Assembly (NCBI GenBank): GCA_031213475.1
Contig: JARUPZ010000012.1
Coordinates: forward strand, 11,603,299-11,667,298
DNA from: Nereocystis luetkeana
Taxonomy: Eukaryota; Sar; Phaeophyceae; Laminariales; Laminariaceae
Direction: 5' to 3'
DNA length: 64,000 nucleotides
Both the position numbers and the translations under genes were made by a program. Under the pieces are notes generated by a model. That model made no database searches. It saw nothing but the letters and a program-made list of their open reading frames with translations, and was not told where the DNA came from. This document shows, in pieces, positions 8,571 through 61,010 of this stretch; within the stretch, counting starts at the first letter, position 1, and each line of letters starts with the position of its first letter.

Positions 8571-10115
8571 TAAGGAGATGGTTAATCCTTAGAGCCGGAT
8601 CTGAGCGTGATCAAGCAGAAGACTCCTTTCCTGCGTTCTAGTTCAGTGGATCGTCTTCGGTAGCATACCACTGCGCTTCCGCCCCCTAGATCATGGATCC
8701 ACCTGATATCTTCGAGGCCGTCATCTACATTTTTTGGCCTTGCCCGACGCCAAGTGAGTTGGCCTTGGGTTGAGTCTACGTGGAGATCGAAGGTCTATTA
8801 TCAAACGAAGCGTTTTTGTTTCAGCGTGTTGACGATTTACAACGAGTAAAAACAACTTGCGCCGCCTGCAGCCAGTGTGAAAATCAACAAGAAAACCTTT
8901 TCTGGTTTTCCCCACAGCAGCGGAGCGAGAGCGTCTTCAGCTATTTCTTGGAGCCAATATTTCTCGGCACTCAACCGTTAAACGTCGTGTTTCCATTGTC
9001 ATCGGTTTTATTCCAGGCGGAAAATATAATTTTCAACTCCTAGGGGTTAGGCAGTTCTTCAGCTACTTACTGTTACAGTAGTTAATACCTGGTACTCCCG
9101 TTTCTACATGTATGTTTGGGTTTAACAGCGCCCTCCCCTACCGTACCATTGGATGAGTTCGACGGTCTTCCTAGTGTTCGATGCCTGCCGCACATTATCC
9201 GGTTTCGGGAAGCGAGAAATCCAGCAGAAAGCGTCGTGATTACCGTACCTTATGTCGACTACCTGCTCGTTGGAACAGACTCCACAGACAACCTACTGTA
9301 GTGAGGCCACACTGCCGTGCTTGCATCAAATATTGGAATACAAGCCAACGTTCCCTTTCTCTGAGCTGTTCAGTTTTCGGGGAATATCCCACTGAATACA
9401 CCGTAAGGCCAAAGACGGCTTCTATTGGGACACTTGTATGATATTATTATACGTACATGCTATCTATGGCGATCAGCCAAAAAGGGCAACAACACCAATC
9501 CCACTGCGAGTACAAATCCTACAGTTTGTTCAAACTTCAACATCTTGCTACCGGCAAGCCCACCCACCACATTTATTTGTTGTACACCCGGTATACGCTC
9601 ATGTATGTTGTGTCGACAACCGACCACGCTTTCAATCCAGTCAGTGACAATTCACGCTCAGTCCTTTCAACTATGAGAGCGCGAACCCGCGATCACTCTG
9701 CCCGCATCATTGAAAAAATGGAAATTCCCCTACTTGTAATACATTGGTATATTCTACTGTATGATGTACCAGGTACCTTCTAGCACTTACTTGCCCCCCT
9801 TGTGAAGAGGCAACGAAGATATCATTTCTACGGGTATGCCAGGTATATCGCTGGGTGGACGGTTTGGCCGCTGCGCCAGTGACGACGACACATTGTTTTC
9901 TACTACCACGGTACTATTAATACCGCAACCATACTCTACTATAAATGCTGCATTGCTCAGCCCCTCCACCCAACGCGGCATTAATCAGTCCCTCCAATCT
10001 CCACACCCGAGGTACGTGTCCTTTATCTTCAGATGTGTGCGCCCAACATTGAGGATGCATCTGAGGTACTACTGCAGCAGCACGAGCAGCAGCAGCGCGG
10101 GGCAGTCGGCGGGCG

Positions 10116-10271
10116 TTACGAGCAACGGCGCCTCCGTGGGCAGCCGTCAAAGCCCGAGTGGCGGCACCATTTCCTGACTTTAGTCGAGCATGTCTCGTGG
10201 TCCTCGCAAGGGCTGTTGGCACAGTTGTCCGAGCAGTAAAATTTACTGTTCCGCTGGTACATGAGGCATTC
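10116..10271 (-). CDS. Gene A exon 5: diverged terminal Cys-rich module
   Basis: The acceptor is CCGAAACAG|GAATGC, phase 0, and the frame runs ECLMYQRNSKFYCSDNC, then CANSPC, and ends in a basic, Cys-containing tail with TAA at 10116-10118. It keeps eight of the ten module cysteines and lacks the last two. The same CSDNCANSPC core occurs in a damaged exon of gene B at 48447-48598, which supports it as a real terminal exon. Confidence 0.68.
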   Translation of the reverse strand, partial: ECLMYQRNSKFYCSDNCANSPCEDHETCSTKVRKWCRHSGFDGCPRRRRCS

Positions 10272-13200
10272 CTGTTTCGGGGAGGACAATCAATGCGGAA
10301 CGTACGTGGGCAAAAGAAAACAAGCCAAGAATGTTGCAGTTCGGTAGTCCAAGTAATGCGCCAAGAAAGCAATGCTTTTGACACAGTCCACTCCTTTCAC
10401 GAGTCAGTTAGTAGTGTACGATGTGTGGCTGGCTTGCTGGCTTGCCAGATGATGGTGACGAGTGCTATGTACCGGTATAGCAGTACGACAGTAGGTACGT
10501 ATATACTATTACTAGGATACAATACGGTCCCGCCAACAAGACATGCGTATTTTGAGCAAGCCTTAGCAAGCCTTACAAGTGTGTTGCGACACAATCATTG
10601 AACAGCCTTGAGCGTAGGCTAATAATACTTACCAGGTAGGTACAGTACAGGATAGTACCTAAGTTAGTTAGGGTTAGTGTAACGCTCGCCGCTGAGCATG
10701 ATTTCTTAGCCAGCCCAGATTTCCAAGCGCCCCTCGCAAAATGGGCCTTCAGTTCTTACTATTATTACTACAGCAGTAAAGTCGGTTATTTCTTATTGGT
10801 GGTCCTATACAGTATTATACTGATGTACATACAGTATAGTACTCACGTTTTCATGGAAAATCCTCTTGCAAATTGGTAGGAATGTACTGTAAATAGTATA
10901 CTTGTATACAGTCAGTCATAGACACGGAGGCCAGAAAAAGCCGATAGCGTCGAATACCGAACGACTTCTCATACAGCATGCATGCAACGCCAGCGTACAG
11001 TATCTCGGGACACGCCTGACACTTGCTCCTATCCATGTAACCAGCTACTTACTACAGTAGCAGTTTCTGTTGGACTCAATCTTGCAACGCAACGCGGGTT
11101 TAAGGAGCGCAACCGATCGAGCAACCAAGCTACAGTTACTTAAACATGCCGGTATATATCTACACGGCCCTTAGGCGCCCGGTCCAACTCTGCAGTTCTG
11201 TTCTTACCTGGGATTCATCGCAGCCACCGCAGAGGTCGGTGCAGACAGCAATGGGCGGGCACGGGGCACGAACGCAGTCCACTTCCTCCAAGGTACACAC
11301 CTCTTCGTCGCCACATGTGCTCGGGATGCACACGTCGGCGCAGTAGTATTCATCCGTGGAACCTTCGGTGTACAAAAGGCACTCCTGTCATGGTGAACAC
11401 GTAAAAACACACACACACACAGCAGTGTCATCAGCTTTTTTTGCCGTTGCTATCGGAGAGTTTTGTTTTTTAGAATTTCCAATTTTTGGAATTGTTGGAA
11501 ATTGGTATCAAGATACGGAGGCGTTCTGTCACAATTTGTGAAAAACTTAGCAGAGGGAAAAATATCAGGAAATTTAATTTTCACAAGGAACATAAAAACG
11601 TGGAAGACACAAAAGTTGCGCGAAAAAAACCCTCCACCAATTAATTTTGGAAATTCTGGAAACAAAACTCTGCAATAAAGAAGAAAGAAAACACCAGCTA
11701 GCTGTGCGATGCGATCGAGGGTTTCGTCGATACTCATCTCTGCAAGCTGTGTGTGATAGTTCGATCGACATGGACCAAGTAATGATGCGGGGTGAGTGTG
11801 ACGTCTTGGGCCATGTTGATAGGCGTGTCCCATTTGGGGTCGTTTTTATTTTGCCTTCGATTTTTTTTTGATACAAAACCTTAACCTTTTCAGTGCGGAG
11901 TGGGTGGAGCCTTCCAGTCGTTAAATACAGTGCCCACTTGTTTGGTCGCCGCTCGTCAGGCTGTCTACTGAGTTTCTCGTCTATCTGTGGGCCCATCTGA
12001 CTGTGTATCACGGAATGAAGCATATACCATTCATGGTGAGACCTGTCACATCATATATTATATATAATCGATTGCGACCACACGCGCACCTACAAAAAAA
12101 CGCAGACGAGTTTGCTGCGCTGACTCATTGGGCTTTCGCATAATAACCTATCTCGATTTGGCAGCGGTGGCTGTGTGTGTAGTGTGATATTAGCCTTGCT
12201 GTGATGTCCTTTAAAGCGGAGGGACCAAAACGTTCTCAAGTTAGATGAATCTCCAGATGGCGATATCCGCACCTAAGTGGGCCCTCGCACTATCCTGATG
12301 TACTACTGCTGTAGTGCGGTTTCGCGAGCAAAAGTAGGTCCAAATGCAGTGCGGTCCCCAACTAAAAGGAGCGGTAAAAATAGAACTACCGTATGTAGGA
12401 TGCATCTACTTACAACATTCGGGGACGCACTAAATAGCGTGGATCCGAGCTGTATAGGCAATACAGTGTGAAGAAACGACGAAGTGATCAGGGCTCGTGT
12501 CAGGAGTGCTATACACGATATGTCAGGTATTATACAGCGGTACAGCAGCAGTTGAGTAGGAGAAACTTACGTAGTTTTCCTGATGCTTTATTCACTCGCG
12601 TTTACTATTATTATTAATAATATCATATCACTAATAAATAACTGCTGTGTTGCAAATTAATCCCGAAACATGCATCCTTCGTTACGCAAGGCTAGACAGA
12701 TCCTCGACGATACTTGTGGCAACCCATTTGAAGACATACATACCTGGTACGTAGTATTTAGTTAGGAAACGGGCAAGCAAGTTACCAGCTATGCTCTGCT
12801 ATAGTATCTCCATCGAGAGGGCGTGTTAGAAAATATATTCAGTGATCGATTTATCGATGGCCAGGGGTAGTGACCCTCTCTGTGATCTACTAATTGATGG
12901 CCTGCAGCAATGGATGTCCTAGCGTTGTGATCCAATCGACGCGTATGTCGAGTGGCGTAACTAGTATTGTATCGCAGTGTGTCTACGTACATGTTTGGCA
13001 AACCAAAGACGCCACCACTACTAGGAGACGGCATGTATGTTCACCCCTTGGCCGACGACAGTTTTCAATTTTTTTCCGTGATTGACGCCAAAATACTACC
13101 AGGTAGTTTTTAGTGTCACATGTGGAGGACTCGGATCCACACCCTTGATCGGTGCTTGTTTCCCTTTGACCACCGTCTCCTAACGTCGTTGTTCTAGACG

Positions 13201-16200
13201 GACTGCAGATTTAGGCTTTTCAGATATCTCTGTACGATACCCAGTCATCGCTCTGGTTTTGTTTCTTTTTCCCTCTTCGTTCTCCTGGTGTTGATGTCTT
13301 TTGTGATGGCCCGAGAGCACCTGGTAACGGTATCATCTACTGGTACACCTATTATGTACAAGTGTAGTTGCTGCGGTTATGCGTCTGACTGATACAGTGT
13401 GATTCGGGATGAGTCGGACAGCTATCCCCGCCACTTTTACACTGTCGATATCAATCGATTACACTCTACCAACTCCAACACGCTTTGGAATTTTAGGTAC
13501 CACAGCAGCCCCCCTGCCGTACATGACATCATGCTTGCGTGTACTGCTCGTGCGGTACCAAATGGTACTGCACCAAAGGGGCACGCTTGCTTCTCTTCTT
13601 GTATCTAAGCAATGTTGCCGATTTCTTACCTGGGTTTCAGTGCAAGCCCCACCGCAGGAGTCAGTGCAGACAGCAACGGGCGGGCACGGGGCACGGACGC
13701 AATCCACATGCTCCAAGCTGCACACCTCTTCGTCGCCACATGTGCTTGGGGTGCACACGTCGGTGCAGTAGTACTCATCCTCGGAAGCGTAGAAAATGCA
13801 CTCCTGGGATGGCCAACACGTTAAAACGGCAAAAAAAAACATATCTGACATTCATATACTCATCAAACACCCGCCAAACAACAAGTCAGGAGTATGTACC
13901 AGGTATATACGACAATAATAGGGATTTCAACAATGTAACTGCCAGTCGGGCTTTTGTTTAGCCACCCTGCTTCGCTGTAACTTGCGATCTTGTATTTTGC
14001 ATACACGACATGCATCAGGAAGCAGTAATTTGTTGTACCAGTACGTTTTAATAATACTGCGTACTGCAGATCTCTACAGGTAGCTAAGAAGGTATACCGG
14101 GTGTGTGTATATATATATAATATATATATATTAGCCCTAACCCTAACCCTATAATATATATATATATATATATATATCAGGTATATCATTTTCATATTCT
14201 CCAGTAACTAATTAGTTATTTTTGGTAGCTGTTTGTTGAAACATTACACTCGTGAGCGTGTGAAGATGTTACCTACTGAGCTATGGGGGTGCCTAATCTA
14301 CCAATTATCCAGTCCAGGGTAATCTATGAAACACTCTATTTCTTTTACCACCATACCAGGTAGCTCAGTAGGTAACACCTTTGGCGTCGTCGGCAGGGCA
14401 CGGGTTCGAATCTCACTTCGAGCCTTTCTTTTAAAGGACGCTTGCACATGCGCCCCTAAAAACATGTCTTGGTAGGTTCACGTACAGCTGTATACGGCAC
14501 CTTTACGCTTCATAATATATATACTCTGTCGTTCAGAGAGGGGGAGAGTCGTAAGGATTATTACCCTGTGCTGGGTTTTTCGATCGATGTGTCACCCCTG
14601 GGAGCACGTTCACACGCGCAGAATAAAGGCGGTCCCGGTCTTCCCTATTGTTGGTCATAGAATACGTCGATCGCTGCTTGGAATTGTATAGCATCGTCCG
14701 TGTTCGATAAGAAAAATGCTGCCCAAAGTAAAACCCCTGTCGCTTCTGCTCTCAGCTAGCTGCTCTTCGTTATCGTTATACCGGGTACCAGGTATGGAAT
14801 ACAAGGCGCTTCGCTCCGCGGGCGGCCTACGCCGCCCGCTACGCTCGCTAAGGAAGGAAAAATACATCAAATTACTATGCCAAGCGGACAGAGAGGTCCA
14901 CGGTAGAAAATAGTTTTCATGATCGATCGTAGTTGCAAACTGGCGACTTGATAATGCCAAGAGCCCCGCCGTAACGCTTCAGAAGAAAACAGCTCGGACG
15001 CCACATACGATTCGCATCGCGGGCGGTTGCCGGACGTACGTCGCCCTACGTATATACCCGAGGTAGGGTACTCCTTTTTCTCTTTTGATACGCTTGCTCT
15101 ATGTACTGCTGTACGAAAGAGAAATAAAAGCACGGCACAGCAGTGCAGCAAAAGCAATGAAAATGAAACCGAAAAAACGAGAAGAAAAACATTCCCGTCC
15201 CCTCATGAAATAGTGTTCTGTCTGATTGGAACACCTTTTTTTTACACCGGTCAAAATATAATAAAAAACGTGCAGCAGAGCTTTTCTCTCAGCCTCGTAC
15301 GCCGCCCGCCCCTCTCGCAATCACCTCGCCACCGATTCGGTCCCGGTAATTTTTTCTTTACTCTTTGCCACAGTGAGCCCCGCCTCGCGTTAAGCCCGGT
15401 GCTCACTGTGGCCGTCGTTCGCCAGCTCGACAATGTTGTTGTTGACTGGGTGCCTCCCTCTGTGGTTTTGAGCCCGATCGCAAAGATAAGCACCGCTTGA
15501 ATATTAGTATCTAGAAATGCCGACCGACCCTTACAACTCGTACGCACCCTATAAAAAAATCACAAATGGAGGCCAGACAGAGCCCATTCATGCATCCTTC
15601 GTGTCTCCAGGCACACGCGACGCCTAGGCACGGAAGCGGCGACCGCGCTCCTTGCAACCCCCCCTCTACCCGCCAGCAGACCACTGACACCCGCGACGGC
15701 GCCGGGCTCACCCGCCGTGCCGTACTACACGGAGTACAAACACGCACACGAAACGAGAGAATAAAAAAGGGAGAAATCACCGAGAGTGCCAAGAGAAAGG
15801 GAGAAAACAAAGACCCGCAGGAAAGGTCCGGAAATAATGAAGGGAGGCGGTTTCGAAGTGGGAGTTCTGAATGGCCAGGGATGTACCAACCGAGCACGCT
15901 CAGGGATTGAGATATAAGTAAGTGATTCTATATCACATCGGCGGTGGGTGGTAGAACATATACTAATTAATTATTAATAGTCATAATGCGTCTCCGGTGG
16001 CCACGAGCGTATGTATGTTAGGATAATATATGAGCGGATAAAGTGAAGCACCACCAGTGGGGTATTTCACACATCGGACATGACGATCTACCAGGTACAT
16101 ATATATCGTGCCAGGTACGTATAGATCATCGACTGCGTACCAGGTATAATATATATCCTAATCTGCCAAGAAGAGTGAGATGTTGCGCATGACCTCCATA

Positions 16201-19200
16201 CACGTATCATCACGGAACACGATCAAATCCAGGAAAGTTGTGCTAGATCATGCAGATTGGACAGCCCTCGTCCAAGGGCAACTTTATGTGCTGGGTCATG
16301 CAGACCAGAAACTATCTGACCTGAAACATTTAGATAATAAAGTTGGGATCAATCTCTGTCCGGTACGTGGAGTGTATGTACACCACCCCCCCCAAGAGAC
16401 AGCGGGGTGCGCACGCATACGCTTGTTGCTTGTTGTGTGATACCTGGTACATGGTATCATATAGTGGGCGCGCGCAGTTAAGAAACACTATCATCTAGAG
16501 AAAATAGGCTCAGATCGGTACGGACATGACATTGTGAAATTTGGGTCAGAAATATAGCTCAACAGTGGGACCAACTCTAAATCCCGCACAATTGGATATA
16601 TATATACCAAGGTCGGGAAAAAAATAAAGACATCGAGCCTGGACACCAAATTGACGTTTCTGAACAGCGGGCGCCCACTGCTGCTGTATACCTGGTACCC
16701 GGTACATACGAGTGTAATATGTAATGCTTGTTTGCGGCAGTACCAGAATGTGACCGGTAGACGCCTCCTTTATCTCTGCATTGCTGTACCAGAATGTGAC
16801 CGGTAGACGCCTCCTTCATCTCTGCATTGCTCTGCTTCACCCAAAAGCGCCCACAATTCAATATCCCTACCATACCATAGTCGAACCACACATACATGTC
16901 TCCTACATGGTAAAAAAAAAAAACGTACAGTATACCGGCGTACCACCCCACCAACCCCATTCGGCTAGGCAAGGCAAGGCAAGATTTCACGTGTGCACAG
17001 CCCAGGACAGGACACGACAACACAGGGAAACTGGTCGAGACTCCTGCATTTCTTACACTGCTGTATCTAATAATAATCTGGAAACTAACATATTATGCCA
17101 GGAGACATTTCAAACAACGCAAGGCGTAAGCCTGTGTCGGACCGAGTTCTCCACACTAAAACCTATTATTAGTAGTTTGGTGTCAGTCAAGGCATGTCAA
17201 GGCAAAGTCGCTGTCTGTCAAGGGGTGAAAGTGCTGTCTCCTGACATCTTTGCTTGGAAATGGGGTGCATTCTTAACCCCTATAGAACTCCAGTCCCGTT
17301 TTGGGGACAAGCCAGTCAAATTCCAAGTAATTTTTTCATGCAGCCCTAAAAGCAACGTAGCGGCTCCAAGACTTCCATTTATTTCTCAGTTCTACGATTT
17401 CCTGTGAATCTCAGCCTGGATCATGTTTTACGTAACAGGCACCAGAGTACCCTGGTACCAAGTACAAGGTATTTTCTGTCGTACGGGATTATTTTCTCGG
17501 CAGGACCAGGTATTCTGTACTAAATGCCAGTATTTACGAGTCACGCCCTTTCTTCTCTCCATCCAATATGAGCACCTGAGAATCGCCGCAAGATCCAGAG
17601 CATTGGTCGGTGTCGCCGCACCCAGCGTCTAGAGTTGCCTTGTCCTCATCGGTCACGGCGCTCCAGAGTTGGACCAGGTCGCACAAGCCGACCGTCAGCT
17701 GCCCATCCCGGTCAGGGTCGAAACTGTTGGGTCCGATCCGGTATAGGCCAATGAGGTACTCCTTACCGAGCTCTAGCGAGACACCGCAAATGGCGCTGTT
17801 GCCTCCAGTCAAGAATTCTATGTCCTGAGCGTAGTTCACGGTCGGTTCCGCCTTGTAGAGGGTGGTGGTGCTGACGGTATAGGTCACTTCGTCGTTGATG
17901 TTCTCCTGCTCCGACCTGCCGTTCGTTAAAGGGATAAGACAGACGAAATTATTGAATACCTGCAATAAATAATAGTGTTGTGTTCTTTCAGGCTATCTAT
18001 AGATATACTCCTGATCGGATACCACTACTACTACTGCTGTATGGTTTACAAGTAGTAGCTGATCATGTTGCCGGGTGGGCGCCATATATTTAGCATGATC
18101 CAGCACATGTTTCCTGGATTCGGTCCGTATTCTAGCTGCACAGAATACACTACACTGCACAGCATGTTATGACGTCAGGTCAGGATCTACAGCCGTAGCT
18201 CGTGATCTGTGCGATGCGTGAATACAACAGATAAATGCGATGCGTGAATACAACAGCAGTAGGAAGTACCAGGCATACACTCGCGAATCGTCGTACGAAC
18301 ACATCAGTACTACCGTATTGATTTAGGAATGTCAGTCACTTCGGAAATCCCCATGAGGACTCTCTCAACGAACGACAACAACAGCTAGCTGGCTATCGAG
18401 GTGAGACCGTGCCGATAGCGGCACCAAGAGGAGGTCAGCTGTAACATTAATATACCAGGTTACCTGGTATAACATTCACCACTCTGGCCGGTAACCGGTA
18501 ACATATCATTTATGCTCCGACGGGACCACCGAACGGATATTACATTCACGTCCATATATACAGTAGAAGTGTCTTGACGGGGTACTATTTAATACCTGGT
18601 ATGAAGATGTACGAAGATGCGCAAACCTATCTACAGCAGCACTCGTAAAACGAATATCAGAATGCGAGAGGGGTTTGTACGACTGCTTCTTTCTGCGTTT
18701 CTGCGTGCTGATGATCCTACCAAAGGGAAAACAAATAATCGCGGCGCTGCTCATTTTTGCTGTTGTTGATGAAGAGAGCTCTTCGAATTTTAGCTTGATG
18801 ATCCCAGATTGAAGCAGAACTTTGGGTGTGCCAACCACGGCGAAAACGAGGGATGCTCGACCAACAGGAGTACATGAGTACAGGACAACCAAGCGACGCG
18901 GGGTCGACAGTCTACAGCCACTGACTTAAAAACAAAAGAAACGCTCTATCGGCCAAGGTACGTGTGGACTCACTACGACTTCTCACAGAGGAGGTTGTCT
19001 ACAGAGTATTCATAATAACATTTGCTGCACAGCTGACGACAAACACGCCTTTCGCTCCGACCGCCGCATCGCCCATTGATTCAACGGTACAAATAACAAA
19101 TACCGGCTGTACCGGCACAAAAATAAAACACAACACAAGGAGTATACTCGTAGCGTTGATACGTTGGGTCTCTGGCGCGCAAACGGCAGCTGGTATGTTG

Positions 19201-19654
19201 ATATGCATGTACCTGTATATCAACCCGGAGTGAGTCTCTAGCTGGCTCTACAGTACTGTTTTGTTTCCGTAGGTCTACCGCACGAGGCGCTTGCCCGCAC
19301 CGCCGCTGATAAATCACCATTATTTGCTGTTTGCTGTGCTTGAAGGTAGTTGGCTACTGCTGTAGCCGCGTGATTGTGGTCTTGAAGAAAAAAAAGTTCT
19401 ACGTATCTACATCGACGAGCGAGGCCGCCGGCCGAACACCCGGCTGGCTACTGCACAGCACAGACTCATCCTCATCCTCTTCCTCACCTTGAAAGCGCCG
19501 TCGCTTGCAGCACGACGTCTGCGTCATCGATGTAGTCGCACAGATCCCTAGCTTGAGATATACAAGAGCAAGCGTCCACCTTTTCCGTTTGGTCCAGGAG
19601 CTGAAGCAGGACGGCGGCTATCGCTACGATACTCCGAACCTTGTGGAAGGCCAT
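10116..19654 (-). CDS. Gene A: secreted TIMP/NTR-like protein with three Cys-rich modules (5 exons)
   Basis: I assembled this gene from five minus-strand exons with canonical GT-AG borders: 19654-19488, 17915-17576, 13803-13630, 11384-11208 and 10271-10116. The joined frame is 1014 nt, or 337 aa plus TAA. Residues 1-28 (from the second ATG) form a signal peptide ending VDA. The mature protein would start CSC, followed by an NTR/TIMP-type domain (TLYKAEP, then a CGVSLELGKEYLIGL segment) and three Cys-rich modules of 58, 59 and 51 residues. In animal TIMPs the free amino group of Cys1 binds the metalloprotease zinc and the C-x-C start is diagnostic; here the match is to the N-terminal domain only. 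The inferred role is an extracellular protein that may bind or inhibit metalloproteases, but this is unproven. Exon 1 ends in phase 2 and all later joins are phase 0. The paralogue is gene B at 48-56 kb, in the same orientation. The introns hold most of the TA-CCWGG-TA inserts in the left half of the window. An upstream in-frame ATG at 19657 is an alternative start. Confidence 0.78.
11208..11384 (-). CDS. Gene A exon 4: Cys-rich module 2
   Basis: Fifty-nine codons between ATGACAG|GAGTGC and ATCCCAG|GTAAGA, both phase 0. It starts ECLLYTEGSTDEYYCADVC and is a near copy of exon 3, with the same ten cysteines and the shared CGDEEVC and RAPCPP motifs. It plainly arose by exon duplication. Confidence 0.8.
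11451..11700 (+). mobile_element. Partial copy of MITE family 2 (TATCGGAGAG end)
   Basis: The stretch starts TATCGGAGAGTTTTG, contains AATTTCCAA and ATACGGAGGCGTTCTGTCAC, and matches the copies at 56277-56547. A second terminal repeat is not visible here, so this copy is truncated. It lies in intron 3 of gene A, close to the 5' side of exon 4. Confidence 0.6.
13630..13803 (-). CDS. Gene A exon 3: Cys-rich module 1
   Basis: Fifty-eight codons between CCCAG|GAGTGC and ACCCAG|GTAAGA. The module starts ECIFYASEDEYYCTDVC and contains CGDEEVC and RAPCPPVAVC; ten cysteines in all. Both ends are phase 0, so the exon can be duplicated or skipped without changing frame. I do not recognise a named domain; the spacing resembles small disulfide-rich extracellular repeats. 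Confidence 0.8.
14098..14178. repeat. (TA)n tracts flanking an interstitial telomeric repeat
   Basis: Two TA dinucleotide runs (about 14107-14131 and 14151-14177) bracket CCCTAACCCTAACCCT at 14135-14150. The telomeric units interrupt what would otherwise be one TA run. Confidence 0.85.
14268..14425. repeat. Inverted pair of tRNA-like A-box sequences; plus-strand copy has a B box
   Basis: TAGCTCAGTAGGTAAC occurs on the plus strand near 14361-14376 and as its exact inverse near 14269-14284. The plus copy is followed by GGGTTCGAATC at about 14403, a good B box, giving tRNA-like spacing. The acceptor stem and T-stem do not pair properly, so I do not call a functional tRNA. It may be the head of another SINE or a foldback of one. 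Confidence 0.5.
16741..16832 (+). repeat. Tandem duplication, 46 bp x 2
   Basis: The unit beginning TACCAGAATGTGACCGGTAG is repeated with a single visible change (TTTATC versus TTCATC). It lies in intron 2 of gene A. Confidence 0.9.
17576..17915 (-). CDS. Gene A exon 2: core of the TIMP/NTR-like domain
   Basis: The acceptor is ACGGCAG|GTCGGAG and the donor is TCTCAG|GTGCTC. The first base completes the phase-2 codon from exon 1, then 113 codons follow. Key stretches are INDEVTYTVSTTTLYKAEP, FLTGGNSAICGVSLELGKEY and the Cys-rich end CGDTDQCSGSCGDSQ. The equivalent exon of gene B (52597-52933) aligns along its whole length with a one-residue difference in size. The frame stays open 5' of the acceptor, so the exon limit rests on matching gene B and the phase of exon 1. 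Confidence 0.82.
18211..18256 (+). repeat. Direct repeat, 20 bp x 2 with 6-bp spacer
   Basis: GCGATGCGTGAATACAACAG occurs at 18211-18230 and 18237-18256. It lies in intron 1 of gene A. Confidence 0.9.
19488..19654 (-). CDS. Gene A exon 1: signal peptide and CxC start of the TIMP-like domain
   Basis: Translation begins MAFHKVRSIVAIAAVLLQLL, a short charged start then a hydrophobic core, and the predicted cleavage after VDA exposes CSCISQARDLC. The segment DADVVLQATALSR aligns with TIMP N-termini (ADVVIRA-type) and with exon 1 of gene B (SDVVLRATVLSR). The donor is TCAAG|GTGAGG, phase 2. A tandem ATGATG precedes the frame; I chose the second because gene B starts with the same MAF. Confidence 0.8.
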
Positions 19655-19659
19655 CATCG

Positions 19660-50267: not shown

Positions 50268-53200
50268 CTGTTGCAGGGTGAATGCGTTGCAACCAAACAG
50301 TATCGTTCGCTTAGAAACATTGATTCTAATTCTAAGCTCGCAGACGGGATATATCTATATCTATGTGTTCCGTTTATCATTAAACGAGAACCATATCGTT
50401 GCTTGCGAAATACTTGAGAGTAGAAACCCTCTCCGCCGGCGCTTGCTTCCACGCGGACGGTTTATATTATTTTGTTCCCCAAGAAAACATCGGATAGAAT
50501 TACACTCGGGACGTATGCTACAGTACATTCCAATACAGCGTGGCCAGGAAAGAGTCAGCCCAAGAAATCTAACCGTCATCGAGCGGAAACTTCCGCAGAG
50601 AAAACAATGTTGCAAGACTCTGCTCCTTGCAAGATTAAGCCATACACAGGTGAAGTGCTGCGAGACCACCTGGGATCGTTTCAACTTAGACTCGCTCGAG
50701 AAGCGCGCGTACTGTGACAGACTTGCTCAAGTTTAAATTTTGCCCACACGCGGCCAACGTGCGAGGAAGCGGCCGCTTGAGCTTTCCCCCCGCTGTTGAG
50801 AAGAACGAAAACTTAGGCACTACTACGGCATAACCCCCCCCTGTGAAAGGCCCGCTAGGTGATGCTCATTATGACCATTTCTCGGAGGGGCACGTGAATG
50901 GACTGTGCCCAGCAATCTCAGCCCCAACCTTTACAGTAACTCCAACCTTAACCCTACACAAACCCCTGACACGGACCTGACTGCTAGCAATACTCCTCGT
51001 CCCTCATACCGGACCTTTCACACGGGGGTTAGCTAGCCATAATCCCCGGAAATGGTCTACCACGCAGCGTGTCCCTGTTCGTGCTACTGTCAACGGTGAT
51101 AATTCCAAGCCCAACTTCAACTCGAGGTGACGCTTTCAACTGCCCAGTATGTTTGGTGGCTGCTCGGCACAGGAGGGGTACCGGTGATCTAGGCATGGAA
51201 CCATGCGTGCTAGGGTACCGGCACGTAGCGCCTGTCAGTGCGCGTTTCTTTATACCTCACACAAAACTTATTATAAGACGATTTTGTATAAAACGATGTA
51301 CGCGCAACCCGGCGAACCAACCCTGGTGAATTCTGTAGCCCCAATCTATACCACAAACAATTATTTTGCAACAGAACACCGCAAATGGGCTTGCAAATTA
51401 GAACGATAGAGGGAATTCCCTAAGCGGAGGAAATCCGTCTGTCAGACAATTCGTGGCCGAGAAGGAAAATTCGTGCCTTGAAACTAGCGTATCACGGCTA
51501 CAACGTACCTGGTACGTAGTATCCCGTGGCAGTGCACCATCCATAGCAATGAATGGCGTAGATGCCAAGCCAACAAAGTAGACGCTTGACCAAGGCTACG
51601 GTAGGCGGGTAACTTTTGAAGCCTCATGTTTCAGTCATAACCTTAAAGCAAGTAACTGTCGCGAGTGGCTACCCTACACTGCATTTCTTTGCAGTCCATT
51701 AAGGGTTTGCGCGTTGGGGTGTGATGATATGCCCCCGCGCTATATAGTTGTTTGAAACGCTGCGTCACTAAAAATAGCTGAAAGGTATTTTTTTAGTGAA
51801 GCTGCAGAGACAGAGTCCCTCGTCCGAGTGAGCTGCACTGGGTGCTCAAAACAACACACAATGATGGCAATATGCTCTTCCTCCCTCCCTCCCTTCCTTC
51901 CTTCCTCTCTCCCACCCGCCCTCCCTACCTCCCGATGAGGCATGCACGGGGAAGCCTTGGCCGCGTGTACGATAAGGCAGTCCTTACGGCACTGACGAAA
52001 ATATTTTGGAACGACGGGGCTTCTGGGGTGATGAACTAACAAGCAGTGTACGGATATTGCCTTTGCCACTCTATATACTGGACTCGTAATTCGTTGCCTG
52101 CCTACTACAGTAGCTTAGTATATAGGACATGGATGAGATCGTCCACGGGGTGTAGTTCGTTGCCTGCTTCCTACAGTAGTTTAGTATATAGGAGATGGAT
52201 GAGATCGTCCATGGGGTCGCCAATCCATGTTTTCTCAAAATAAGTTTTTGAGGGGTACACTGTCTGTCATCAATTGCCCAATATCAACTACAGCACCAAC
52301 TATCTTTATCAACTACCAGGTATCGATTACTCTACCTGGTATCGATTATCAAGCATCAACTATATATGCAGTATGAAGTATACACATTGTAGAGCTCTTC
52401 AAAAGTGACGAACCCTAACCCCAGAAAAATGCAGGGGTACCACTGCCGTATCATCATGACATGTGCTGAAGGTTTTCTTTTTTTTTTCTTTTTTTTTCAA
52501 TGTTTTAGTTTGTTTTCACCATCATCCCCACCGTCACCATCGTCATCTACAGTAGTAGCAGGACTGTACCTCATCAGTTACTTCTTATCATTGTACCTGA
52601 AACTCGCCGCATCTTCCATCGCATAGATCGTTGTCGCAGCCGGCTTGTAGGGTCGCCTCGTCCTCATCGGTAACCGAGCTCCAGACCCGCACCAGGTCGC
52701 AGATACTAACCCTCAGCTGATCCTCCTGTTCAGGGTTGAAAATGCTGCCTCCACTCCGGTATAGGGCGAGGAGGTACTCCTCGTGTAGTCGCAGCGAGAC
52801 CCCGCAGAGGGCGCCGTTCCCCCCAGTGACGATGTCTATCTCCTCGGGGTACTCCACGTTGGGCTCCTCCTTATAGAGGGTGTTTACTGCTACCCTGTAC
52901 GTGACGTCGTCGTTGATGCCCATCTGCTTGGACCTACGACGAGAGACAGTTATACGCGCATAAGTATGTCCGAGGTCAACGGTTTGTGCTTGCTGTACGT
53001 GGGAGTTTGGCGCGAAAGGAAAGTCAACGCCAGGGAGGAGGTTTACGGGAAGCGCTCTGCGCAGACCTTGTGGATGAAATTTCGACGCTGTTTAGTGACC
53101 ACACTGCCTGCCGCGGTACACGTTGTTTTTTTGGGGGTTTTCTCACCCATCATAGTATAGTTAGTACCATAGTATAGTTAGTACCATAGTATAGTTATTA

Positions 53201-55797
53201 CCATAGTATAGTTATTACCATAGTATAGTTATTACCATAGTATAGTTATTACCCTAGTATAGTTATTACCATAGTATAGTTATTACCATAGTATAGTTAT
53301 TACCATAGTATAGTTATTACCATAGTATAGTGATTACCATAGTATAGTTATTACCATAGTATAGTTATTACCATAGTATACCTGGTAGTTATTACCATAG
53401 TATAGTTATTACCAGGTATGCAGTATGGGTGGGTGAAATGGATTAATTACATTTAATATAGTGACTTGAGGCTGTACGACGTAGTGTTGATTCAAGTAAC
53501 TCTGTAATTATTGTTCTTGCCATCCGACCATGTCTATTTTGTAGATTGAGCTTCAACGTTGATCTCCCATAAGCACCCCGGAAGAAGAATGCCACGGAAA
53601 CAAAAAAGGGCCCTATCTATGCACAAAGTCTACTGGAACTCCCTCCTCCTGTACATACTTCTGGCTTGAGCTCTCTATCTACTCCATGGCGTGTGAACCG
53701 TTTTGGTCTTTTTTTCAAGACGATACATATTCAGGACGAACTTCAACGTCGATCGCTTCCACACTATTCACCACATTACGGTTTCGATATTTTTAGTGGG
53801 CGAATCGACCCTTTCGTCCCTCAGATCGTTTTATTCTTCTTGTTTTTTAAGAATCACTTTCGCTTTCCAGCTTAACTCGTAGGAGTTTTTTTACCCTTAA
53901 CAGTCTTCTTCTAGACAAGCCGTGATAACAGGTGTTGTCCCTTCTCCCCCCCGGTACGCGCCTTCATTTTGTTGTCGCGCATAAGGCTCAGCATTCCCAC
54001 TGCTCGTCGTTCTCGATCGAATGTAGCTAACTCACGCTTTCGCGTTTTCCGCTAAAAATCATTTTTTATGCAAGAAATAGTCCATACGAGCATAAACTCG
54101 GTGATACTTGAACCCGCGATTGATCTTAGTAGGCACGCGGGCCACCTACTCAGCCACCGGGGACGCCAGTATCGTTGTACCTGATACATGCAAAAAAACA
54201 CGGGGATGCCAGGGGGTGGAGGGTAACGCACGTTCGACACGATAAATCGAAAGTTCGATGCCTGGTATGTCGATTCGATATCGAATCCTCCGACCGATAC
54301 GGTTTTCAACATTATCACAGATATTCCCAGAAAGACGAAGAAGGTCAAGGGAAATCGTTTTTCGTTTTTACGTTATTATTATTCTGTTTGCCTGTCATCC
54401 ACCAATGGGCAGCGTGAACTTTAGCCACGATGGTTCACACTGGCATATAGCAGTAGACATTATATAGCGAACAAAGAAACTATGGGGGACCGGTCAAGAA
54501 AGCACTACAGCAAGGCCAGTATGCATGCATACATGTGGCATGCCGTAACCATTTCCATGACATGGAAAAGCGAAGCTCCGCGGCAAACACAACTACTAAT
54601 ACAAATAAATACTACTACTGCAGTAGTAGTAGAAAAAAGAGCTCTACCAAAGACTATAATAGTAGTGTACTAAAACAACAACAGTTGGCGCGGCAAATCA
54701 TGGCGACATCGCATGCAAGCTCATGTTGTTGTGTGCCTCGGAGGTGGGAACTAACTTAGTCACCAATTATTATTACTGCCTGGTACAGTAGTATATACCT
54801 GGTACTGTGCAATAGTACCAGGCATGTGAAATATCGTCACGATTCTGTGTCCCCTTCCTTGTTGTTGCTACAGTCTTCATGTGGATCCGTTGAGTGTCGA
54901 GAAGTTCAATGTATGCTCGAAGGTGGAATATCGAGCAGAAGGGATGTAATAATGAACTCGTCGGGTATTCTAGGAGACGACATGCAGGCGGTTATGATGC
55001 CGACTACTGCTGAGTGAGCGCGAAGTGCTCAACCCACCAGTCAGTGCTGCTGTAGCGCCTAACCGAGCGACATAGAGGACCGGCAGCAACAACGGACGAC
55101 GGTACTCATACTCGGTTGTTTTGGGCCTCTTTGACAAACTTCTTATTTTGCCCAACTCCGGACAGCTCATACCAACGCCCATGGTAGTATTGAGAGCAAC
55201 TGTTACACAAGAAGCAGCTGGCACGACACTAACATAGTAGTATTACGGGGGACCATAGTTAATAGGACCTATGGTATACATAAAAACCTATATATTCAAC
55301 ATTTTTTACTAACAATTTTTGGTCCTATTAACTATGGTCCCCCGTAATAGTGGGGCTTGGCTGTGATCCGGAACGAGCTGTCTTGCTGTTGACGACACGA
55401 GAGCATCGTGCGTCCGACCGAAATTCACCAAGGCCCGACTTCTGTTACGGGGGACCATACCTGGTACCTGGTAGTAAATAGGACCTACGGTAAATGCAAA
55501 CCCCCGGATATTTACGTATTTTTACCAACAATATTTGGTCCTATTAACCATGGTCCTCCGTAATAATAGGAGGTATCACACACTGTTAAGAGGGCCAGCG
55601 TTATTGCTGCTGCTGTGTGCCGCCCTTGCTCACCTCGACAGCACGGTTGCACGCAGTACAACGTCTGAAGTGTCCACATAGCCGCACAGCCCCCCCGAGT
55701 TAGGGAAACACGAACAAGCTTCCACGTTGTTGGTGGCTTGGTCTAGCAGCAGGACGGCGCCTAATGCCAAGATACTCAGAAACTTGCAAAAGGCCAT
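50106..55797 (-). CDS. Gene B: shortened paralogue of the TIMP/NTR-like gene A (3 exons)
   Basis: Exons 55797-55634, 52933-52597 and 50267-50106 join in frame (phase 2, then phase 0) to give 220 aa. Residues 1-27 are a signal peptide ending VEA. The mature start is CSCFPNSGGLCGYVDTSDVV, then the NTR-like core with CGVSLRLHEEYLLALY, then one Cys-rich module that stops at a TAA (50106-50108). The exon's conserved donor (CCCAG|GTGAGA at 50087/50088) still exists beyond the stop, so the ancestor continued into further modules, as gene A does. The stop leaves a module with eight cysteines, the same number as gene A's terminal module, so the shorter protein could still be stable. The downstream exon relic at 48.45-48.6 kb is frameshifted. 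I cannot tell a functional short form from early decay. Confidence 0.68.
50750..52080. other. Intron 2 of gene B, no additional gene
   Basis: Short frames only. It includes a CT-rich microsatellite at about 51880-51937 and one TA-CCTGG-TA unit at 51506-51514. Confidence 0.5.
51880..51937 (+). repeat. (CTCC/TTCC)n polypyrimidine microsatellite
   Basis: Pure pyrimidine run of CTCC and TTCC units within intron 2 of gene B. Confidence 0.85.
52086..52217 (+). repeat. Tandem duplication, 66 bp x 2
   Basis: Two copies share TTCGTTGCCTGC, CTACAGTAG, TTAGTATATAGGA and ATGGATGAGATCGTCCA, with about six differences. Confidence 0.9.
52597..52933 (-). CDS. Gene B exon 2: TIMP/NTR-like core
   Basis: The acceptor is CGTCGTAG|GTCCAAG and the donor is GTTTCAG|GTACAA; one base plus 112 codons. 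INDDVTYRVAVNTLYKEEP, VTGGNGALCGVSL, SSVTDEDEATLQAGC and a terminal CDGRCGEFQ align with gene A throughout. The absence of frame breaks, with many synonymous and conservative changes, suggests this exon evolved under selection. Confidence 0.82.
53152..53418 (+). repeat. 17-bp minisatellite (about 15 units) in intron 1 of gene B
   Basis: Unit TTATTACCATAGTATAG, with early units starting TTAGT and single-base variants elsewhere. One unit at 53379-53387 is interrupted by exactly CCTGGTA inserted after a TA. Confidence 0.92.
53815..54165 (-). mobile_element. SINE-like dispersed repeat, copy 2 (well-preserved pol III boxes)
   Basis: On the minus strand the element starts near 54162 with GGTGGCTGAGTAGGTGGCCC (A box TGGCTGAGTAGG). 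About 30 bases later comes GCGGGTTCAAGTATC (B box), then a body of about 250 bp, and an A-rich tail (minus-strand reading of 53830-53850). It is the same family as 605-940. The tRNA cloverleaf is not complete, as is usual in SINE heads. It lies in intron 1 of gene B. Confidence 0.65.
55241..55349 (+). mobile_element. MITE family 1, complete copy
   Basis: TATTACGGGGGACCATAGTT to CCCCCGTAATA, 109 bp, with near-perfect terminal inverted repeats and TA borders. It lies in intron 1 of gene B, about 0.3 kb downstream of exon 1. Confidence 0.9.
55444..55565 (+). mobile_element. MITE family 1 copy carrying two nested CCTGG-TA insertions
   Basis: The left terminal repeat reads GACCATA, then CCTGGTACCTGGTA, then GTAAATAGGACC, where other copies read GACCATAGTAAATAGGACC. 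The extra 14 bp is two units of CCTGG plus TA. The remainder matches the family up to CCTCCGTAATA. It lies just 5' of exon 1's donor side, in intron 1 of gene B. Confidence 0.9.
55634..55797 (-). CDS. Gene B exon 1: signal peptide and CxC start
   Basis: MAFCKFLSILALGAVLLLDQ is a clear secretion signal, and cleavage after VEA exposes CSC. The donor is TGTCGAG|GTGAGC, phase 2, as in gene A. An upstream in-frame ATG nearer 55836 exists but would bury the signal peptide. Confidence 0.82.
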
Positions 55798-56080
55798 GTT
55801 GGAGTATTTTCTGCTGTACTGCACAAATTCACGCAATAATATGAGTTGGGGTTCGGAAAAGGGCTGTATAGCTTGTGGCGCGAGAAGCAGTGAACCAGTG
55901 TTGGTTGGTATTCGGGGGGATATTTAACGATTCGAGAAATAACTTTTGGTCCAAAAGTCTGAACCGCTTGCACGCTTACAAAACAAAATAGTATCTGCGC
56001 TTTGTGGTTGTGGAGCGTAGTTCATTCCGGGTAGCGCCCATGATCCACAAATCATATTGATACATATTATATATTATGTA

Positions 56081-56103
56081 TACCTGGTACCAGGTACCTG
56101 GTA
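56081..56103. repeat. Three stacked TA-CCWGG units in alternating orientation
   Basis: TA CCTGG TA CCAGG TA CCTGG TA embedded in a TA-rich run upstream of gene B. Confidence 0.9.
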
Positions 56104-56276
56104 TATATTATATATATCTTATATATATGATATAGGTATACTGCAACAAAACAAAAACGCTTGGTCGGCGACGACCGCTCACAGCTTGCTTTCAAGTGAC
56201 ATGTTTGCTGTGCAAAACCAACTTTCAGGACTGCACCCACCCACGTTTTTGGGGACGAGTCACTCAGGCTCATTTT

Positions 56277-56547
56277 TATCGGAGATTCTTCTTTCCAAAA
56301 TTTTCCAAAGAGTAGAACTAATTGGAGATATGTATCAATATACGGAGGCGTAACCCAAAATAAATAATAATATACGGAGGCGTTCTGTCACTATATTCGT
56401 GAAATTCTTCAGAAGTTAATTATCGGAGAGCGTTTTTTCCAAAAATACAAAGTTTGGAGATAATTGGAGATATGTATCAATACACGGAGGAGGCGTTCTG
56501 TCACTATTGAAAGAAATGTCGAAAAATTGGGAAAAAACTCTCCGATA
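56277..56547 (+). mobile_element. MITE family 2: one complete copy (56421-56547) next to a partial copy
   Basis: The complete copy has inverted ends TATCGGAGAG(CG)TTTTTTCC and GGAAAAAACTCTCCGATA, TA borders, and an interior with GGAGATATGTATCAATA and GGAGGCGTTCTGTCACTA. The partial copy (56277 to about 56410) starts TATCGGAGA and repeats the interior, with TATACGGAGGCGT duplicated. The same family occurs at 11451. Confidence 0.75.
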
Positions 56548-57303
56548 AGAATGACCCTTATATTAGTTAGGCTATCACATCCTCATCAGTCAGTGTAGGA
56601 TACGTTAGGCACCACTGAACAATCCGTTGCTCCGGAATCAACCCTCCCTACCTACGTACGCACGTATGTACGTTGGAATAATAAATACCAGTGATATGCT
56701 CCTATGGTTGGGGGCAATGAGTACACCAATAATACCGTACGTTTCGTGCTTTGCAGAAGAAAATTGTTTTATTTTTAGGTTGCAGTTTTTGTGGCAGCTT
56801 GCTGCACCCACATACATACGTCTACGAACAAGCTCATAGGAGTAGTTCGAGTTGAAGGACAGAAATTCTCTCCCTGCATGAATGCCGTCAGCATCATCTA
56901 CTCACCGTAGACAACTTAGTACCGCACTGACTGCCTTGAACAGCAGAAGAGGGTGACATGGCCGGTTTTTTAGTTAAAGTTTTGGGCTGTGGCGCTACGT
57001 AGTGGTGAAAATGTGTCCCGACTATCCACGGGCCTCGAATGCGGCCAACAACAGGCAGGCGTTTCCGTACGAGTAGGACGAGTGGGAAGCAAGGATACAG
57101 TTATTAATTTAGTGGTCCGGTGTCAGATTGCGAAATTGCGATATATGCAGGGATGTATGCCCGAAAACCACGTAACAAAGTGCCTCCCGAATCTCGAAAA
57201 GGCGTGTATCAGGATCACAACCTAATTTTCTTTTGTTCTACTACTATATAATACTACAGGCGGAAATAAAAAGGGCTTGAAAAAACAAATCGCCAGCGGC
57301 TAA

Positions 57304-57600
57304 TTAAAAAAGGGTTTTGGATGTTACTTCGACGAAAGATGCTTTGAATTGTGAAAACAGTTGATGATTTGTGAAAACAGTTGAAGGGGGGGGGAAAGGG
57401 GCAGCTCTGCTCCTTTTCCCGCGTACGTCCGCTTCCCCTTCACCAATAACGAAGGGCAAAAGAGGGGGGGGGGAAAGGGGCCGCGCCGCCCCTTTTTCCC
57501 CCCGCGTGTTAGCGCCTTCCCCAAAAACACATAACAAACCGCGGCCGACCTCCCTACCGGTCGCGCTCCGTGAATGGAACTTCCCCCCCCCCCCCCCGTG
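57304..57600. repeat. G/C homopolymer region with an imperfect duplication
   Basis: Two blocks of about 85-90 bp (57386-57455 and 57455-57540) each run G-tract, AAAGGGGC, pyrimidine tract, GCG, CTTCCCC. A poly-C of 14 or more bases lies at 57584-57597. The minus-strand frames across it are low-complexity. Confidence 0.7.
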
Positions 57601-57616
57601 CATGGGCAACCCAGAG

Positions 57617-58265
57617 GAACCCGCTCATATCGGAAATCCGACAAATTGCTATAAGGTCACATAGTTCTGTTTTTAACGGCCCGCTCATCTCGGGAACCCA
57701 CTTGACCGACCACTAGTACCGTGTGCTTTTCCGGTGGTCTTCGGTGACAACGGCCCGCTCATATCGGGGACCCACCATATCGCCAAACGGTTATTCATTG
57801 TAGTGGTTCCGTTTTCTAACAGCCCGTGTTACCGGGAAAACCCCTACTAATCGACCACTATGTAAACGTGCTTTCGAGCGGTCTACGGTATCTAACGGCC
57901 CGCTCATATCGGGCACCCACCACGACTGCTAAACGAATAGGATGGCCCGCTCATATCGGGCCACCTAGACATCGGCCGTCTACGGTCATTACTTGCGCGT
58001 GCATTTCGGGGGGTCTACCGTGACAACGTCCCGCTCATATCGGGGACCCACCGCGATTGCCAATCCATTATTCAGTGCAATGGCTCCGTTTTCTAACGGC
58101 CTGCCCATATCGGGAAACCACTTCTAATCGACCGCTACGTACACGAGCTCTCGAGTTGTCTACCGTATCTAACGGCCCGCTCATATCGGGAACCCACAAC
58201 GATTGCTAAACGATTAGGATGGTCCGCTCATATCGGATCACCACGAAAATCGACCGCCTACGTGC
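57617..58265 (+). repeat. Higher-order minisatellite built on GGCCCGCTCATATCGGG
   Basis: Ten submonomers each start with a version of CCCGCTCATATCGGG, at about 57622, 57680, 57754, 57822, 57899, 57946, 58030, 58100, 58176 and 58223. Their lengths cycle as roughly 70, 76, 47 and 84 bp. Position 57754 aligns to 58030, 57822 to 58100, 57899 to 58176 and 57946 to 58223, giving a higher-order period near 276 bp. CCCG and CGGG in each start can pair as a small hairpin. Confidence 0.85.
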
Positions 58266-58685
58266 TCTGCCCTCTTCCCCTCCGTTTGCCCGTCCGCCGT
58301 GGCAAATACGGGAGGGTGGGTGGGAAAAAATACAAGAACCAAACCCGAAACCGCAAAACAAACGATGCCTGGTGGATCTACGCCGCTCCCTGCTCGGCGC
58401 CTGACTCTCCCCTGCTCGTGCTGGGCCTCGCCCGATATCTATCGACTCTGATTATCTCGCTGCTCCCGCTGCTCTACTCTCTTCCTTACTTGAAGTGCGA
58501 TTGATCCTGCTACGAGGGCCCTCTCGTCTTTCTAGTGTTACCCCCGTACTAAACAACCCGTTGGTTCCGTGTGAGATCCCCACCATCGATTTTTACTGTT
58601 TCTTTCATATTTCTACCCGTTGCCGTTCCAAACACCAGGTTGTCTAACAACCTTCCTCCTTAATTCGTTTTCCGCGAAACGCGAA

Positions 58686-58862
58686 TTTGCAAATAACGTT
58701 TCAATTAAAAAGGCCGCAACAAGTTTTTGGACCTGCGGCCAAAAACGTTGTGAACCCAAAATCGCGTGTTGCGCTGCGCGCAACCACGCCCTTCGCGGCT
58801 GTTGCGGAAAACATATCATTTGACCAAAATGTTGCGCCAGCGCAACACAGAAACAGCAAATT
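58686..58862 (+). repeat. Cluster of short perfect hairpins
   Basis: Inverted repeats lie close together: TTTTTGG...CCAAAAA near 58724-58746, GTTGCGC-TGC-GCGCAAC near 58768-58784, and GTTGCGC-CA-GCGCAAC near 58831-58846. No ORF of note covers them. Confidence 0.7.
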
Positions 58863-58869
58863 ATGTCTC

Positions 58870-61010
58870 TGGTGTTTTTTTTCTTTCTTTGAACACGGCC
58901 CGGTTGCAGGTAAGAAAGACACAGTCTATGGGCATGTCTGTACATTGTTTCGCGCTAACATTCGAATATCTGACGCACAATTTTTCGCGAAAAAAAACCA
59001 ATATCTGACCTACGCATCAATGTTCGATACATACGTACTATTATTCCCTGCAATCCAAAATACACCGTGAAAATCGGTCTTGACAAGGTGTACTGAAACA
59101 ACTAACTACGAGCCAATGCCTTAGTTTTGCACTTTTTATCCGAACTAAAGTCCAAATGTCCACGCCATTTGTATTTGATAGACCCTGGAATTCTGCACGT
59201 GTGTTCTTATTTATGTCTTTCCCGAGGACTGACCTGCGTTGTTTTCTTCTTTTCGCTTCACCTACACTATTTGGGTTAGGCAAGGTGGTCTAAGTTTGCC
59301 ACAAAACCCCGAAACATAACGAAATATCAGACAAAAAAGTGAAGGGTAGCAGCGGAGAAGATGTATAGCTGGTGAGAGACACAGAAAAGTCGATGCTGGG
59401 TAGAGCCGGCTGCTTGTAGATCGCGATCACTGCTACTCGAGTGGGTTTTAAGGGAGCGTGAGAGCTTGACTGAGCGAGGGGGTGTTTCACCTGGAACACA
59501 ACTCAGCCCAGACGTTGACCAATACTACAGCAGTATCCGGTACCAGGTATGCAGATACGAGTCTACCGGGACGTACACATAAATATCCCCAAACTATCAC
59601 ATAATGTTCTGCTCTCAAGAGGGTTTCTAGACGGGGTCCACTAAATATTCCCCAAGCTCTATGGGCAATCATAAAAAAATCGCTTACGGGTGTATTCCCG
59701 AAGCGTTGCGTACAACAACATAAAATTATCAAATATATTATGCTTGCCTTCGGACAATATAGCGTAGATGCCGTTCCAAAATAAACTGAATACCCTTCCG
59801 TAAATAAGCAGTATCCCTCGTACGCTTCTCTGCAAACCGTTTTCCTATTTCCATTCCCAACATCCTTTTACTTTAGCTATATATCCTATTCCTAATCAAC
59901 GGTCCATCCCCAGGTCATTCGCCGCATTCCTCCGGCCTCTTTATCCCCCCCCCTAACGGCCTGGCGGTCCCTCAGTGCTAGTCAATACCGATGCACACGT
60001 CGCGAAATCGCAACCGAACCCTCACCGAGATGATCTGGAAGCGGCGTTCTTTGCAGACGCCTTTCCGCGCCAGGGACGATCCGCCCGTCCGTCCGATAAT
60101 ACTTGCCGCTACCTGATCGATCAGATCGGTAATTCGCATGCGGGTATATCCCCGAAGCGATACGTGCAGCTACAGTATATAAAAATCGCATGCGAAGACA
60201 TTCCCAAACCGCTACATGCCACCATATACGATTCGGTTACGGGCATGTACGTTCTTATCCGGTGGGTGGGCTACTCCATAGGGTTAGCCCACCCTGAATG
60301 ATCGTAGACGCAGATCACACGATGATAAACGTGATGAATATCGTCTAAAAATCGGGAAGAGATACCGAAAATGTGGCTATATTCCACAAAGAAATGGGTT
60401 GAAAGAACTACCCCACAACCTCGTAGTGAGGCCCCGATGCCTCACTTGCGAGTCAAGCGACCATCCGGAGGGAGAACAAACAAAACGCACGAAACGAACC
60501 AGGGCGCAAGGACTGGGAGGTCCGCGGGAAGTACACCGCAAAGCTTGGAATACAATTAAAACGGCGGTCTAAAGCGTGGAGTCGAAAGAAAAAAAAAGTC
60601 CCGTGAGATGAGGTGTTCGCGAGGACTCACATTGACTAAAATACCCGTCCAAAATGTCACTGTCTGACGTCCAAAAAAACCGCTGGAGCTTTGGCCGGGG
60701 CATAGATCCCCGCCGTTAAATTTGAACTAGCTTGTTCGTTGCATCCGGTAGATCTAGTAATCCGCTTTGCAACTGGCTGCACATCTTTACTTGCGAGTTT
60801 CGGGGGCAATTGCTACAGTCTTCAGCAATTTTACTCGTAGTTGACTGTATTCGGGGTATTGGCACAGTATAGTACATGTACTCCTGTAGTACAAAGGAGG
60901 CCCGAAGTGAACACGTGGGCGGCGAGAAAATTAGAGGGACGGAGATTCACGCGACTTTTCGACAAAACAGCGCACGACCAGGGATGGCTCTAACGTCTAC
61001 CTGGTATACC
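58870..61010. other. Telomere-adjacent DNA, no supported gene
   Basis: One plus-strand frame at 59975-60301 (108 codons, containing YVQLQYIKIACEDIPKPLHA) has an even composition but no domain I recognise and no sign of splicing. I leave it as a weak hypothetical. Telomere-like GGGTTAGG bits occur near 59272 and 60280. Confidence 0.35.

Follow-up and report, generated by a model that had tools for sequence, protein, structure and literature searches.

Why does a nine-base word expected less than once by chance recur throughout one end of an algal chromosome-size contig? The question arose in the right-hand end of contig C12 (JARUPZ010000012.1, positions 11,603,299–11,667,298 of 11,667,298) of Nereocystis luetkeana, a stretch of 64,000 bases referred to here as the window and terminated by ~3 kb of TTAGGG repeats. 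It contained 33 exact copies of TACCWGGTA, i.e. a CCWGG unit between two TA dinucleotides, including stacks of units at 48046, 55458 and 56081. The copies lay where the original prediction, made from the sequence alone, had placed them; it had read them as insertions of CCWGG at TA, each with duplication of that TA. The units proved to be such insertions, and they may well have been left behind by an excised transposable element.

Abundance of TACCWGGTA in the window and the genome

The enrichment in the window was evident against dinucleotide shuffles, which gave 0.78 expected copies; none of 100 shuffles reached 33. A count over the whole assembly had been proposed as a check, and it revealed the same excess. 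In the 465-Mb assembly, on which all genome-wide counts are based, TACCWGGTA occurred 182,395 times and the reversed word 1,744 times (~100-fold). Twenty 10-kb stretches taken at round coordinates on C1–C15 held 67 copies (1.4 expected). Early statistics were calculated for a sample of 263,064 bases (263 kb), consisting of positions 1–61,000 of the window, the stretches L001–L004 and 19 of the twenty 10-kb stretches; the remaining one (L017), a satellite, was left out of later counts. Since L001–L004 were picked for holding doubles, the sample over-represents doubles. It contained 113 copies of TACCWGGTA (1.8 expected) and 10 of TACCSGGTA (1.9 expected). When all 16 dinucleotides were tried as direct flanks of CCWGG in this sample plus L025–L030, only TA was prominent (120 vs. 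1.9 expected), followed by AC (6 vs. 2.3) and TG (6 vs. 2.4).

Of 100 clusters in the 263 kb, 90 were single units, 7 were double and 3 triple, so the units did not lie mostly in tandem as in a minisatellite. They were present on C12, with its terminal TTAGGG repeats, as well as on the remaining chromosome-size contigs sampled, which indicated that their location is not organellar. Versions of the word with one mismatch were found 125 times (48.5 expected), from which a decay of 4–5% per site was estimated; the units are thus not all recent.

The copies had also been predicted to avoid GC-rich DNA, which held only in part. This was assessed in a sample of 297,384 bases (297 kb; the 263 kb plus L025–L030, L072, L073, L081 and L082), which also served for the target rule, indel scan and flank comparison described below. 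The rate per 1000 TAs was 8.0, 8.9 and 7.2 at 40–45, 45–50 and 50–55% GC, respectively. Avoidance was visible at 55–60% GC, with a rate of 0.9 (1/1,120), but not at 60–65% GC, with a rate of 13.0 (2/154). Below 40% GC, none of 499 TAs carried a unit. Along the window, the copies per number of TAs were 0/357 in positions 1–9000, 14/710 in 9000–19000, 1/677 in 19000–29000, 2/791 in 29000–47000 and 15/987 in 47000–61000.

Insertion of the units at TA

Insertion was tested at a fixed site, namely a particular TA within the head of a ~107-bp, TA-flanked miniature inverted-repeat transposable element (MITE) with TTACGGGGGACCATAG ends (TTACGGGGGACCA). Copies of this MITE were present at 55241–55349 and 28870–28978 of the window, and genome-wide. 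Empty heads (GGGVMCCATAGTWAATAGG) yielded 24,939 exact matches genome-wide (12,493 + 12,446; control 0), with up to two per MITE copy, and heads occupied by a unit (GGGVMCCATACCWGG) yielded 263 (134 + 129; control 1 + 6 = 7). The two patterns were unequal in stringency, so the occupancy of about 1% is only a guide. We read 40 of the 263 occupied heads (the first 40 of 100 listed) over 180 bases each, ~125 of them beyond the site, and scored the MITE as resuming when at least 6 of 7 bases matched directly after the unit or units. It resumed directly after one, two or three units (n × 7 bp) in 36 of the 40 heads. By eye, it also resumed in L095 after one substitution and in L107 after one extra G. 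The remaining two heads, L090 and L097, did not resume, the latter matching the MITE in 4 of 7 bases. In L090 (G000:C2:1800717–1800896), the occupied head led into other sequence, in which three further CCAGG units and a single CTGG unit followed, and then into a second MITE head.

The units at the MITE site are thus insertions at TA with duplication of the TA, as are the footprints of Tc1/mariner elements. Both empty sites named in the original prediction were recovered. The TACCTGGTA unit at 53379–53387, inside a 17-bp minisatellite, was a clean 7-bp difference from the neighbouring repeats, and the two CCTGG units at 55458–55473, in a copy of the TTACGGGGGACCA-TA MITE, accounted for 14 bp relative to the empty copy at 55241, as judged by eye. 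By-eye MITE comparison also gave 7 bp at L013:7306 and L013:7320.

The central letter at the fixed MITE TA, read on the MITE strand, was T in 53 and A in 47 of the 100 listed heads (of 263; p = 0.62). The unit is therefore no fixed templated word, and the two letters were about equally frequent at one site, as in Sleeping Beauty-like footprints. A flank asymmetry between single A-type and T-type units was weak and was absent at the MITE site (53:47). Four-base inserts (TACYRGTA) were also found at the fixed TA, by pattern match only, with 47 occurrences (control 5), of which 17 were CCGG, 15 CCAG, 10 CTGG and 5 CTAG. They resemble products of imprecise end joining and, together with L107, which was one base longer, they showed that the junctions were heterogeneous.

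The targets followed a spacing rule. When both flanks of 106 clusters were counted, a TA lay at a distance of exactly 7 bp in 73 instances, compared with 16.3 expected from all TAs (p = 7e-25), and weaker excesses of TA were seen at 2, 4 and 14 bp. Decayed neighbouring units accounted for only part of this rule, as 10 of 68 five-base spacers started with CC (3 of them CCCGG; ~4 expected). The rule extended to the CCAG, CTGG and CCGG forms (21 in 50 sites vs. ~7.7 expected) but not to CGAG sites (5 in 44 vs. ~6.8). A slight excess was seen for CWG (23 in 104 vs. ~16.0) and CSG (18 in 73 vs. ~11.2).

Stacks had been predicted to re-use the regenerated TA and to mix both letters, which slippage from a single unit cannot yield, and this was borne out. 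In the window, three CCAGG units were stacked at 48046–48068, and CCTGG, CCAGG and CCTGG followed one another at 56081–56103. Doubles (TACCWGGTACCWGGTA) numbered 15,917 genome-wide, compared with 2 in the control and with a rough 1,310 adjacent pairs expected under random re-use of TA. Mixed pairs made up 6,378 of the 15,917, with CCAGG-TA-CCTGG (4,522) occurring 2.4-fold more often than CCTGG-TA-CCAGG (1,856; p about 1e-251) although both orders are self-complementary. The mixed pairs exclude slippage alone as the source of the stacks.

Triple stacks were absent from viral contigs. Arrays containing TACCWGG three or more times were found in bacterial metagenome-assembled genomes (40 stretches, L031–L070), under names including Acidimicrobiia, Deltaproteobacteria, Gemmatimonadetes, Planctomycetota and Chitinophaga. 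These heptamer arrays were local, tandem and often degenerate, unlike the dispersed single units described here.

Origin of the units

We hold with moderate confidence that the TA-CCWGG-TA units are footprints left by the excision of a cut-and-paste element that targets TA, whose ends read CCWGG and whose overhang, at 4–5 nt, is unusual. Such a transposon would insert at TA, duplicating it, and would later be excised by staggered cuts 4–5 nt inside its ends. If these ends read CCAGG... or CCTGG..., the two 3' overhangs (CCWGG against CCWGG) would pair C:G, C:G, G:C and G:C, and one central A:A or T:T mismatch would remain. End joining, with mismatch repair in either direction, would then produce CCAGG and CCTGG at equal frequency. 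The scar would restore the TA and place a second one at a distance of 7 bp. As TAs with this spacing are the favoured target, scars would draw new visits and stack. The element itself, presumably once present between the two TAs, would now be rare or extinct.

The CAG overhangs of Sleeping Beauty likewise pair with a central mismatch, which is resolved in two ways (CAG/CTG). The terminal repeats of Mos1 begin with CCAGG and are flanked by TA, and its footprints are three bases long. In contrast to Mos1-type ends, no accompanying mariner transposase was found here, in a search with a silent control. With Sleeping Beauty and the Tc1/mariner elements, the units share the TA target, the TA duplication and a few bases between two TAs; they differ in their number (about 182,000 copies) and in that no donor was found in the sequence read. 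They differ in length as well, since a passage of PMC7827188 describes staggered cuts by Sleeping Beauty and mariner that leave three-base 3' overhangs as footprints, compared with five bases here. The target preference also differs from that of ZB, for which a section of PMC7913693 gives a palindromic AT repeat, whereas a TA at 7 bp was favoured here. In Ectocarpus, from the same brown-algal lineage, 17 Mariner-Tc1 families with about 12,000 copies, mostly MITEs, are described in part of PMC12477816, the main text of which does not contain the word "footprint". Literature searches on the 9-mers returned no such insertions by title among the matches listed. Those on brown-algal or genome-wide footprints returned no description of them among the matches listed, with subscription papers and preprints outside their scope.

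If the units are footprints, they document roughly 180,000 earlier transpositions by an element now rare or gone, in a 5-bp size class not usual for TA-targeting transposons, and hit-and-run transposition becomes countable and datable. Each scar is a small insertion mutation, and about 0.7% of all TA sites were scarred, as estimated from the sample.

Several results weigh against excision footprints. No element was found within ~125 bases beyond each of the 40 occupied MITE sites, and the 263 kb contained no family starting with TACCWGG and having differing left flanks. In the 297 kb, TACCWGG without a following TA occurred in 114 contexts on both strands, and no shared inner flank hinted at a hidden terminal repeat (10 similar pairs vs. 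3–15 in 20 random draws). Among transposase domains, DDE_3 gave no matches (its control was positive in 3 of 14 genomes), nor did Transposase_1, whose control was silent. In favour of the footprint model, the pogo-type DDE_1 gave 28 matches in the genome, several with open frames, though with no link to the scars; against it, no TA-CCWGG terminal pair was present at six pogo-type loci, of which only 3.3–3.6 kb each was covered, perhaps too little to include the ends. The main form of 5 bp (263 at the MITE site, next to the 47 four-base forms) falls outside the 2–4 bp that a section of PMC7913693 gives for Tc1/mariner footprints. Paralogue alignments yielded only one clean 7-bp difference, that at 53379 of the window; other differences were 8 bp at L011:3808, 11 bp at L016:8865 and 5 bp at L022:5762, in a TATATA run. 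In an unbiased scan for small indels (297 kb), the duplicated dinucleotide was TA at 31 of 174 sites, AA at 27 and CC at 9, and CCWGG inserts were few among the 174. Finally, the order bias of the mixed pairs (4,522:1,856) is not predicted by the footprint model.

Candidate element ends and related inserts were also inspected. The TACCAGACC sequence of L017 was rejected as a terminal repeat, as it belongs to a tandem satellite; the satellite has a spacing of ~86–88 bp by eye and contains TACCAGACCCCGTAGGATCATACCCTC. GGWCC between TAs (12.7-fold) was largely internal sequence of a TTACGGGGG MITE, and TATTAATA (71 vs. 3.5), considered as a footprint of that MITE, was confounded by ATT microsatellites, as a 3-bp TA periodicity nearby showed. 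The GAAAGCCCGGTAATTACCTGGG and TACCCTACCTGGGGTATG families and two two-copy families were discarded as element ends because their left flanks were conserved. The sole candidate for a minimal element that we noticed was a 30-bp palindrome that starts and finishes with CCTGG (TACCTGGCAGGCGTCATCGCCTGCCTGGTA), seen once (L023:9715–9744). Two further types of insert were over-represented between TAs in the 263 kb: TACGAGTA/TACTCGTA (41 vs. about 6), which did not follow the 7-bp rule, and TACAGCAGTA/TACTGCTGTA (23 vs. about 0.4).

A tentative second explanation is direct micro-insertion, in which an enzyme would cut at TA and repair would add five palindromic bases as filler, without any element having taken part. 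The 263 kb and the 40 sites that were read yielded no source element, the product was nearly uniform, both letters occurred at one site and a TA spaced at 7 bp was common to the targets, all of which would fit such a process. Against it, the four-base forms at the same TA look like end-joining products, and no enzyme is known to insert a set palindromic sequence whose middle base may be either A or T. That the nuclei of this lineage hold an activity which inserted CCWGG with a duplicated TA about 180,000 times, preferring TAs at 7 bp, without any mobile element, seems possible but doubtful. If no element was involved, the units would point to a novel type of mutagenic enzyme activity.

We considered it improbable that the 7-bp unit forms a palindromic micro-element that is mobile in its own right and is copied in the way of mitochondrial GC clusters. 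The clusters of yeast mitochondria are 18 and 42 nt long and flanked by AG or ACT, according to a section of PMC4478555. Like the present units, they are described there as short, palindromic and rich in GC, with a small duplication at their flanks (2 bp here), and as dispersed and merging into stacks. Yeast GC clusters are organellar, whereas the units are nuclear. Seven bases would leave little recognition signal beyond TA-N5-TA, and near-equal A and T at one site misfits copying from one master.

Replication slippage or quasi-palindrome correction, building the units from flanking sequence, appeared very unlikely. Two paralogue differences would suit it, at L013:7520 and L024:4762 (by eye), where TACCATA or TACCGTA became TACCWGGTA by +2 only; these could also be explained by insertion of 7 bp and subsequent deletion of one TACCA repeat. 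The TACCAGGTA unit that closes the minisatellite (53410–53418) likewise showed +2 relative to its neighbours (TACCATA by eye) and no clean 7 bp. Same-letter pairs were common as well (9,539 of 15,917, by subtraction). In contrast, the empty counterpart was TA alone at the 36 of 40 MITE sites, which contradicts slippage as the main cause, and neither the 6,378 mixed pairs nor the 90 single clusters among 100 are in keeping with it. Selection on TACCWGGTA as a functional protein-binding motif, for which its density and palindromic form might speak, is hardly credible, as the 263 occupied and 24,939 empty heads and the stacks indicate insertion instead of selected point mutations, the n × 7-bp paralogue differences contradict it, and any later use of the sites would leave their origin unchanged.

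Further units and other features of the window

The other units of the window were recorded, as were all units, with no strand assigned (listed as "."). Single TACCAGGTA units lay at 9767–9775, 10630–10638, 13097–13105, 13897–13905, 14354–14362, 14786–14794 (with TACCGGG just before it), 16089–16097, 16138–16146, 25549–25557, 38023–38031, 52314–52322 and 59541–59549. Single TACCTGGTA units lay at 9086–9094, 12741–12749, 16441–16449, 16689–16697 (followed by CCCGGTA), 18593–18601, 34820–34828, 51506–51514, 52333–52341, 54796–54804 and 60998–61006, the last with telomere repeat 7 bp further on. An imperfect pair at 18453–18469 consisted of TACCAGGT and then TACCTGGTA, with the first unit lacking its right-hand A.

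Stretches of 3,335 bases were identical across eight contigs (L073–L080; C8 and seven small contigs). The small contigs may duplicate chromosome sequence, and the identity of the eight loci makes them uninformative on polymorphism. A first look for the EsV-1-7 cysteine motif turned up 1,718 candidates, and all 150 that were scored exceeded the curated cut-off. The motif was absent from 14 control genomes, a weak control as the named ones are prokaryotic. According to part of PMC12477816, the EsV-1-7 domain has expanded in the brown algae and is known outside them mostly from giant viruses, so the motif makes a brown-algal genome likely. Within the window, a long interspersed nuclear element was represented by an open frame of 1,225 amino acids on the minus strand (21477–25154), with endonuclease and reverse transcriptase domains, which together with the TTAGGG telomere marks the genome as eukaryotic, and pentamer arrays rich in GGGTC, together with longer-period repeats, occupied positions 42287–44661.

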